DNA of 64,000 nt from Robiginitomaculum sp. Its GTDB lineage: Bacteria > Pseudomonadota > Alphaproteobacteria > Caulobacterales > Maricaulaceae. Below, in pieces: positions 34,592 through 37,551 of the stretch. Each line of letters starts with the position of its first letter. The first letter of the stretch is position 1. Location of the stretch: contig JAJFFT010000004.1 in the NCBI GenBank assembly GCA_021776525.1, positions 186,001-250,000 on the forward strand. The letters run 5' to 3'. The translations under genes were made by a program, and so were the position numbers. The notes beneath the pieces are model-generated. The model worked only from the letters and a program-made list of their open reading frames with translations. It ran no database searches and was not told where the DNA came from.

Positions 34592-35203
34592 ATGCACAAG
34601 CACACAATAGATTTACTGGAAAAAATGCTTAATGCCAGCGAAGCAGGGCGTATTTCATGGGCCGAGGTGCCGGGAAAAACTGCTTTTAGTTATCTGGCCG
34701 GCGAGTTCGTTGTGCTGGTTGATGACGGCGCAGAGCGAACATCATTTCGCCTGACAGACTCAAAAGGGCGTTCACTGGAACAGGCAGGCACTGATGATCT
34801 GGCTGCTGTTAATCTTGGCACAGGCGCTACGGGGCTAAGTGCTGTGCAAAGCATTCATGCGATTGCCAAACGGCAGACCATGGGCACGGATCAGGCCATT
34901 GCGTCGGTGATGGAGCATTTGCAGGGCCTGGGTGCCGAGGCACCAGCCGCGGTTGTTGAGGACGTTCCTGAGGTCCCTGTGGACGAGGTTGCCGTGGTCG
35001 AGGAGATAGCGCCAGAGCCCGAACCTGACATGTTGGAGGAGAATTTCCAGACAGAGGAAGGGCTTCAAGCAGCAATAGAGGACGTGCATGAGGCGTATGA
35101 AGAGCCGCCTGTGGTGGAAGAGCAATTGCCTCCGGTAAAAGAGAAAAAGCGCAAACGCTCTTTGCTCAACCCGTTTGGCGGCAAAAACAAGAAACGGTCT
35201 TAA
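34592..35203 (+). CDS. Hypothetical acidic protein with basic tail
   Basis: 203 residues. The first 110 residues look like a compact domain (KMLNASEAGRISWAEVPG, FVVLVDDGAERTSFRLTD). The following 75 are strongly acidic and rich in Glu, Pro and Val, likely disordered, and the C-terminal 20 are basic (KEKKRKRSLLNPFGGKNKKR). No family is recognised. It faces the TipF-like gene with a 4-bp overlap of the stop codons. Confidence 0.7.
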   Translation: MHKHTIDLLEKMLNASEAGRISWAEVPGKTAFSYLAGEFVVLVDDGAERTSFRLTDSKGRSLEQAGTDDLAAVNLGTGATGLSAVQSIHAIAKRQTMGTDQAIASVMEHLQGLGAEAPAAVVEDVPEVPVDEVAVVEEIAPEPEPDMLEENFQTEEGLQAAIEDVHEAYEEPPVVEEQLPPVKEKKRKRSLLNPFGGKNKKRS

Positions 35204-36438
35204 ACGGCGACTTTATAGGCTTCTTCGGTTTCAGCCAGAAACTCTTCGCGAATGGGGCTTGGCGGGCCAAACAGGTGCCCCTGCGCATAGCCGATGTCGA
35301 GGTCCAGAAGTTCGACTACGGTGACTTCATCCTCGACCTTTTCGCCGATCAGTTCGATGCCGTTGCTAATCAGATAGCGTGAGATATCGGCAATGCGAAT
35401 ATCCGGTGCTGCAGGCAGTGCAGCATCTGGTGCAGACTTAATCGCCGCCAAAAGCAGGTCACCAGACGCTTTGAAAAACTTGACTCCGGCGCGCTGCATG
35501 TCTTTGGCATCAAAGTTGAGGTTTTCAACTTTGTCGATCGAGAAACGGAAGCCAAAGTCAGCCAGACGAGCCATATTGCGGGCTTCGATAATGCCGCGAT
35601 CTTCAAAATCTTTTTGGCCGATCTCAAACACGACGGAACCCGCCAGATCTGCATTTTGGCGCATGAAATCAAGGAATTGCGGAAAGAACACTTCATCACG
35701 CAGTGATAAGGGCGAGATGTTACAGACAATCCCAACCTGGCGGTCTTTTTCGGTCAGGCGGCGGACAATCTGCACACAACGGAACAGAAGTAGGTTATCA
35801 ACCACCGTCATCAGGCCCGCGGTTTCGGCGACTTTCATAAATTCGGCAGGCATAATCACATTGCCGTCCTGATCGCGCAGGCGTGTGAAACTCTCGTAAA
35901 AATAAATCTTGCGTTGCGGCAAAGAGACGATGGGTTGCAAGTGCAGTTCAACCCGCCCGGCTTCCAGCGCCTCGCGCACCAATGTCAGCAGAACGTGGCG
36001 ATCATTGGCTTCTGATGGCTCCAGCGTTGGTGTCGCCGCAGCGCGTGCCGCCTCTGAAATACGTGTCGCAAACGCACTTTCCATTTTGGCGATAACACTT
36101 TCCAATGCCTGAACTTCGGACACAATCACTTCGTCGCGCCGTACTGCTTCGGCTTCAACGGCTTTGGCCATGGTGTCCATTTCATTATGGATGCTGGATA
36201 TTTCGCTGGTCAGGGCCAGATTAGCCTTGCGCAGTTTTTCAACACGATTTTGCAAGATCGTATGCTTGCTGGCCCGCGTGACCGCGGTGTGGATTTGCAT
36301 GAAGCCAAGAAAGCCCAGCGCCCCGGCCAGCATTGCTGTGCCTGGTGCCATGCCCGCAAGCCGCACCAGCGCCAATGAAGCCACCAGCGCGCTTAAAGCG
36401 TACAGCGAAAAGAACAAAAACTCTGTCAGTCGGCTCAT
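35200..36438 (-). CDS. TipF-like membrane protein with degenerate EAL domain
   Basis: 412 residues from the ATG at 36438, which has AAGGGA upstream. Two transmembrane helices (about residues 6-26 and 30-48) are followed by a coiled coil (about 55-125), then an EAL domain from about 155. This architecture is that of Caulobacter TipF, which binds cyclic di-GMP and helps place the flagellum at the new pole. The catalytic signatures are altered: ESFTR replaces EALLR, SIDKVENLNFD replaces the DDFGTG loop, and VKFFK replaces the VKLD-type segment, so phosphodiesterase activity is unlikely. No flagellar genes are in the window, so the role is inferred from architecture. Confidence 0.78.
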   Translation of the reverse strand: MSRLTEFLFFSLYALSALVASLALVRLAGMAPGTAMLAGALGFLGFMQIHTAVTRASKHTILQNRVEKLRKANLALTSEISSIHNEMDTMAKAVEAEAVRRDEVIVSEVQALESVIAKMESAFATRISEAARAAATPTLEPSEANDRHVLLTLVREALEAGRVELHLQPIVSLPQRKIYFYESFTRLRDQDGNVIMPAEFMKVAETAGLMTVVDNLLLFRCVQIVRRLTEKDRQVGIVCNISPLSLRDEVFFPQFLDFMRQNADLAGSVVFEIGQKDFEDRGIIEARNMARLADFGFRFSIDKVENLNFDAKDMQRAGVKFFKASGDLLLAAIKSAPDAALPAAPDIRIADISRYLISNGIELIGEKVEDEVTVVELLDLDIGYAQGHLFGPPSPIREEFLAETEEAYKVAV

Positions 36439-36603
36439 CGGATCCCTTTGTTTGCAAGGCATTTTGGCCATTGCAATACGCGCCTGCGAAACGTCGCGCG
36501 GTTATGGTTTCCAAGCCGTTAACCATTTTGCCTTGCGGCGCATTTTTTTCATGCAGTTTTACGCTTCCCGCCTTCTCAGGAACACTTTTCGCACCTATAT
36601 AGA

Positions 36604-36684
36604 CGTTGTCCTTCGGGACTATGGCGATAAACGCGCGTGTAATAACTGGACCGGACCCGGGGGCGGTACCCGGCGGCTCCACCA
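36604..36684 (+). ncRNA. ssrA: tmRNA acceptor piece (two-piece, permuted ssrA)
   Basis: This is the 3' (tRNA-like) half of a circularly permuted tmRNA, which lies upstream of the coding half in such genes. It ends in the encoded CCA at 36682-36684. The acceptor strand CGGCTCC (36674-36680) pairs with GGGGCCG of the coding piece. A 5-bp T stem (CCGGG/CCCGG) with loop GGCGGTA precedes it. A GTCC-TTCG-GGAC hairpin lies at 36608-36619. The 5' boundary is approximate. A CTATAT at 36595 could be the promoter -10. Confidence 0.85.
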
Positions 36685-36736
36685 TCTTCTTCTCTCGCCC
36701 GCACCATTGGGCCCGCACCATGGGGGAGAAGTTGAT
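36685..36736 (+). other. tmRNA internal spacer removed from precursor
   Basis: Between the encoded CCA of the acceptor piece and the first G of the coding piece are 52 bases, rich in pyrimidines at first. In permuted ssrA genes this loop is cut out during maturation to give two RNAs held together by base pairing. Confidence 0.7.
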
Positions 36737-36951
36737 GGGGCCGAAATAGGATCGACGGACGGCTAAAGACGTTAGCTTTTGCTCGGGTGAGGCCCGTTAC
36801 AGGCTCGTTCGCAATAGTTGCAAATGACAACTTTGCTCAAGAGACCGCTCTCGCTGCGTAAGCAGTGCGAGTAATCTCGCTTTAACTCCTTGGCACAATG
36901 AGCGCCAAGGCGGGGTTCGGAGGCACCTGGCAACAGAAGCCTCCACTTGTT
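36737..36951 (+). ncRNA. ssrA: tmRNA coding piece with proteolysis tag
   Basis: The 5' half of the permuted tmRNA starts GGGGCCGAAATAGGATCGAC, the standard tmRNA opening. The acceptor stem with the upstream piece is seven pairs with G3:U70, the alanine identity element. The tag reading frame runs from GCA at 36820 to TAA at 36861 and encodes ANDNFAQETALAA, close to the Caulobacter tag ANDNFAEEFAVAA and ending in the ALAA-type ClpXP signal. A pseudoknot-type stem (CCTTGGC/GCCAAGG) follows, then GGAGGC/GCCTCC near 36917-36945. The 3' boundary is approximate. tmRNA rescues stalled ribosomes and tags their products for degradation. Confidence 0.93.
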
Positions 36952-37077
36952 TACCTTTTCTTTGCCCTCATTTCACTTGCCCCATCGAGGCGAAAGCAAA
37001 AAGCGTATATGGGGAGTGTGATTGACCTCGCCAATCCATAGGGATACTCAGGGTCAATAATAAGGGGAGCATAATCA

Positions 37078-37551
37078 GTGCCAAAAGATCTCATGCGCTA
37101 TGACCTGCTAGCACAAGAAGCCCTGCGCGGTGTTGTACGGGCGGCCGTTGTGCGGGCAGCCGAAGATGGCCTTCCCGGCAGTCATCATTTTTACATCACC
37201 TTTCGCACCCGCTATCCCGGTGCAGATGTAGACGAGCAATTGCTCGAAAAATACCCCGAAGAAATCACCATTGTCCTGGAACACCAATTCTGGGACCTGG
37301 CATCCTTGGACGATGCCTTTGAGGTGACTTTAAGCTTTGGCGGCGCACCAAAATATATCAAAGTGCCTTATGCCGCCGTGACCAGTTTTCATGACCCCGC
37401 CGTTGGCTTTGGTCTGAAATTTGACATGGGTGACCCCGATGCGGTTCCAGCCACGGCCGGTAATGCCCCATCGGCGGATTCAGACACCAACGACACCGCC
37501 GAACCTCTGGCCGGTGAAGTTGTCAGCCTGGACGCTTTTCGCCGCAAATAG
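37078..37551 (+). CDS. sspB: SspB-family ClpXP adaptor (alphaproteobacterial type)
   Basis: 157 residues. The conserved core reads DLLAQEALRGVVRAAVVRAA, then HHFYITFRTRYPGA, TIVLEHQFWDL, and FEVTLSFGGAPKYIKVPYAA, matching the alpha-type SspB. The C-terminus ends VVSLDAFRRK, a short motif separated by a flexible linker, as expected for the ClpX-binding tail. The protein delivers ssrA-tagged substrates to ClpXP. The start is GTG with GGGGAG eight bases before it. It lies about 130 bp after the tmRNA gene on the same strand. Confidence 0.92.
   Translation: MPKDLMRYDLLAQEALRGVVRAAVVRAAEDGLPGSHHFYITFRTRYPGADVDEQLLEKYPEEITIVLEHQFWDLASLDDAFEVTLSFGGAPKYIKVPYAAVTSFHDPAVGFGLKFDMGDPDAVPATAGNAPSADSDTNDTAEPLAGEVVSLDAFRRK

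Follow-up and report, generated by a model that had tools for sequence, protein, structure and literature searches.

We found that the window, a stretch of 64,000 nucleotides of a Robiginitomaculum sp. contig, contains one circularly permuted two-piece tmRNA gene (ssrA) of the alphaproteobacterial type, an ordinary and already known kind of housekeeping gene for ribosome rescue that had been correctly described from its letters. It is practically certain that this locus is the single chromosomal ssrA and that it encodes a permuted tmRNA maturing to two pieces. The assignment follows from the covariance model, the ARAGORN prediction, the covarying helices between the pieces, the identity pair for alanyl-tRNA synthetase (AlaRS) and the tag. 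Upon searching with the alpha_tmRNA model of Rfam (RF01849), the check that had been proposed, we observe a full-length match at 36569-36947 (model positions 1-355) with 263.5 bits and an E-value of 1.7e-75, the gathering score of the model being 50 bits. The same locus scores 125.7 bits against the Rfam model tmRNA_permuted (RF04321), and ARAGORN reports one permuted tmRNA in the window, at 36592-36952, with the tag ANDNFAQETALAA. The one-piece tmRNA model RF00023 gives a partial match of 16 bits at the locus, below the cut-off, and the gene is thus not a member of that family.

The original prediction had placed the gene at 36604-36951, a start that omits the leader CCTATATA; the two programs put the gene between 36569 or 36592 and 36947 or 36952, and position 36604 probably lies near the 5' end of the RNA. 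That ORF calling had missed the gene is true but trivial, because every RNA gene escapes ORF calling, and standard tools find ssrA at once. For annotation, the result fixes ssrA and its tag in a Robiginitomaculum-like bacterium and bears out the sequence-only reading, and by itself it raises no new question.

Gene anatomy and covariation between the pieces

All parts of the gene lie on the forward strand and follow the permuted order, with the T arm and CCA upstream, then the spacer, and the GGGG strand and the tag downstream. The gene opens with a promoter-like leader at 36569-36607, which corresponds to the unpaired positions 1-39 of RF01849 and carries the conserved CCTATATA, a probable -10 region. 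The TATA motif of the leader is near-invariant among 58 relatives, and the leader is presumably the promoter of ssrA. A scan with the sigma-70 consensus, which is weakly informative for alphaproteobacterial promoters, returned neither a promoter nor a terminator at ssrA. The divergent neighbour upstream, at 35200-36471 on the reverse strand, encodes a protein with an EAL domain; its closest counterpart is TipF, a flagellar c-di-GMP protein, with a score of 467 bits that lies under the equivalog cut-off of 600 bits.

The acceptor piece, which is the 3' half of the tmRNA and is encoded first, spans 36608-36684 according to the RF01849 and RF04321 alignments, the coordinates and the covariation. 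It consists of a 5' hairpin, the strands of the long inter-piece helix, the T arm, the acceptor strand CGGCUCC (36674-36680), the discriminator A and the encoded CCA, which ends at 36684 and therefore stands upstream of GGGGCCG (36737-36743), as had been read from the sequence. The two acceptor strands form base pairs over their whole length of seven positions, and the third pair is G36739:U36678, that is G3:U70, again as foreseen. The coding piece, or 5' half, extends from 36737 to 36947 in the RF01849 alignment, with the ARAGORN end at 36952, and comprises the GGGGCCG acceptor strand, GAAAUAGGAUCGACG, the return strands of the inter-piece helix, the tag reading frame and the 3' pseudoknot region. 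The tag frame, which both ARAGORN and the coordinates place at 36820-36861, begins with the resume codon GCA, has a hydrophobic end and reads ANDNFAQETALAA up to the stop codon TAA, in agreement with the tag given earlier.

Next, we aligned 58 distinct tmRNA genes, drawn from the order and more broadly from the class, and observed covariation far above chance. The Rfam structure accounts for 95.6% of cells being paired, as against 34-48% after sliding by 1-3 columns. Changes on both sides are found in 19 of 33 pairs, and none of 500 shuffles reaches the observed values. Of the helices that join the two pieces, three (2, 3 and 4) show 4-5 pairs changed on both sides apiece, which is direct sequence evidence that the acceptor and coding pieces work together. 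One acceptor-stem pair is seen as G-C, C-G, A-U and U-A across the alignment, and G3:U70 is unvarying (58/58), as is expected of the alanyl-tRNA synthetase identity pair. The Rfam pair 36649:36759 is G-A here, and it is also non-standard in most relatives.

The two pieces are separated by an intervening spacer at 36685-36736, and its length is exactly the 52 nt that had been stated. It forms a hairpin with a folding energy of -19.5 kcal/mol (z about -2.5 relative to mononucleotide shuffles), within which an 11-nt direct repeat, GCCCGCACCAT, occurs at 36697 and 36711. The spacers of eight other Robiginitomaculum-type loci are also stabler than shuffles (z from -1.2 to -4.5), and the hairpin recurs despite their differing sequence and lengths of 29-54 nt. 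It is plausible that the hairpin juxtaposes the two cleavage sites. Such a stable hairpin would also suit an RNA in which the piece boundary is right and the spacer persists uncut as an unprocessed loop, but we regard this as extremely improbable, given that the encoded CCA is present in nearly all and the opening GGGG in all of the 58 aligned sequences, as tRNA-type end processing needs, that the loci analysed differ in spacer length, from 27 to 61 nt, and that two-piece function has been demonstrated in Caulobacter (PMC3985003).

Copy number and distribution

The genome is a 2.96-Mb draft in 7 contigs, 94.7% complete, and the copy counts refer to the assembled sequence. In it, the ssrA of the window is the only RF01849 match, and a better ssrA elsewhere, the finding that would have spoken against the original prediction, is absent from the 2.96 Mb. 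Matches to the one-piece model RF00023 all stay below the cut-off; they are short and mostly tRNA-sized, the strongest reaching 35.1 bits. The genome also contains one smpB (PF01668, E 1.7e-54) and one alaS (PF01411, E 1.7e-213). tmRNA genes often serve as sites of integration (PMC11915505), and in one relative (G005) there is a second, weaker match of 96.5 bits. Both would fit a locus that is a pseudogene or the remnant of an attachment site, in a genome whose working gene lies elsewhere; against a full-length match with seven of seven acceptor pairs and an intact tag, in a genome where it is the sole alpha_tmRNA match and the one-piece matches stay under the cut-off, such an origin has next to no probability. 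Beside the main gene, two genomes have weaker alpha_tmRNA matches of 96-110 bits (G005:C25:13593-13897, G104:C5 and G104:C3), which may represent contaminating sequence, gene remnants or a second copy of ssrA, perhaps carried by a mobile element.

When extending the search to other genomes, we found an RF01849 match in 94 of 99 relatives and in all 77 genomes representing one alphaproteobacterial family each, with 75 of the latter over the cut-off; an ssrA gene in permuted form is thus what is normal for Alphaproteobacteria. As a lineage marker, which it had been proposed to be, it does mark the class, but not exclusively, as some betaproteobacteria and cyanobacteria also have permuted tmRNA genes, and a published catalogue already lists 11,946 distinct permuted sequences (PMC11915505). 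The five relatives lacking an RF01849 match still gave none with laxer filters, and three of them also gave none with RF04321. Three (G006, G032 and G036) are less than 90% complete, and the other two, G013 (92% complete, 120 contigs) and G035 (100%, 90 contigs), are fragmented and have neither an alpha_tmRNA nor a permuted match, G035 having sspB despite the absent tmRNA match. These absences are probably assembly gaps.

The gene resembles other members of RF01849, such as the ssrA of Caulobacter crescentus, in its permuted order, encoded CCA, spacer and GGGG start, as well as in the inter-piece helices, G3:U70, the ANDN...AA tag and the full-length model match. The tag ANDNFAQETALAA and the sequence of the 52-nt spacer are species-level variants, and we found no structural difference. 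A Caulobacter control genome also matches RF01849. With tmRNA_permuted RF04321, a family that extends to betaproteobacterial and cyanobacterial forms, it shares the tRNA-like domain and the permuted order, whereas with the one-piece tmRNA of RF00023 it has trans-translation in common and differs in its permuted gene order.

The sspB neighbour and the proposed tagging pathway

Downstream of ssrA, on the forward strand at 37078-37551, we identified sspB, encoding the alphaproteobacterial SspB, a ClpXP adaptor, from PF04386, phmmer and synteny. It has a GTG start that lies 131 bp past the end of the tmRNA model, and is a functional neighbour outside the RNA gene. The protein matches PF04386 with 135.8 bits (E 1.7e-39; gathering score 27) and, with phmmer, the PDB entries 2qaz ('SspB Protein') and 2qas at E-values of about 1e-40. 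Its relatives by name are from Robiginitomaculum MAGs, with up to 90% identity, followed by Maricaulis, Hellea and Oceanicaulis.

Considering genomes with both genes on one contig, and taking the gap as the distance between the tmRNA match and that of the SspB profile, sspB lies downstream on the same strand within 1 kb of ssrA in 13 of 13 genus members and in 53 of 61 alphaproteobacterial families (one genome each; median gap 104 bp). Among the remaining 8 families, six have sspB farther downstream on that strand, at 1.2-7.5 kb, a pattern resembling the insertion of genes between ssrA and sspB, and in two it is far away. The literature searched yielded no report of this adjacency; the SspB papers likeliest to mention it were outside that search, and an earlier report may exist. 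The conserved adjacency is a modest lead on co-regulation of the tagging RNA and its adaptor. That the two genes would form an ancient, functionally kept alphaproteobacterial unit, in which a single place supplies both the tag RNA and the tag adaptor, perhaps with transcription running on from ssrA into sspB, and in which tag and adaptor co-vary, is an idea suggested by the gene order that we hold tentatively and consider rather doubtful.

The anatomy of the gene, its covarying pairs, the tag frame, the single copy in the genome and the partner genes are direct observations, and we infer transcription, cleavage, charging and tagging from the tmRNAs of Caulobacter and Sinorhizobium. Two-piece processing and function of permuted tmRNA genes have been described (PMC3985003, PMC10117765), and in Caulobacter degradation by ClpXP through SsrA/SspB is known (PMC8119881). 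By analogy, a single precursor would be transcribed from about 36.60 kb and cut at two sites, one just behind the encoded CCA and one in front of GGGGCCG, with loss of the 52-nt spacer, probably via RNase P and tRNase Z. Base pairing would keep the acceptor and coding pieces together (after PMC3985003), AlaRS would charge the acceptor piece with alanine via G3:U70, and SmpB would deliver the charged tmRNA to stalled ribosomes. There, the ribosome would restart at GCA, adding A-ANDNFAQETALAA, and the tagged protein would then be degraded by SspB and ClpXP.

Variation of the tag and resume codon

Tags of the form ANDN...LAA predominate among the relatives, and ANDNFAQETALAA had been read as a variant of the Caulobacter tag. 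In Sinorhizobium, the tag peptide has been observed by mass spectrometry (PMC10117765). Two Robiginitomaculum MAGs (L038, 4528-4879, and L039, 4521-4872) have GAT (Asp) as the resume codon, as against GCN (Ala) in 58 other tmRNA matches. Their predicted tag is DNDNFA[H/Q]ETALAA, and ARAGORN instead shifts the tag start upstream (ARVDNDNF...); the GAT could be a real change of the resume codon.
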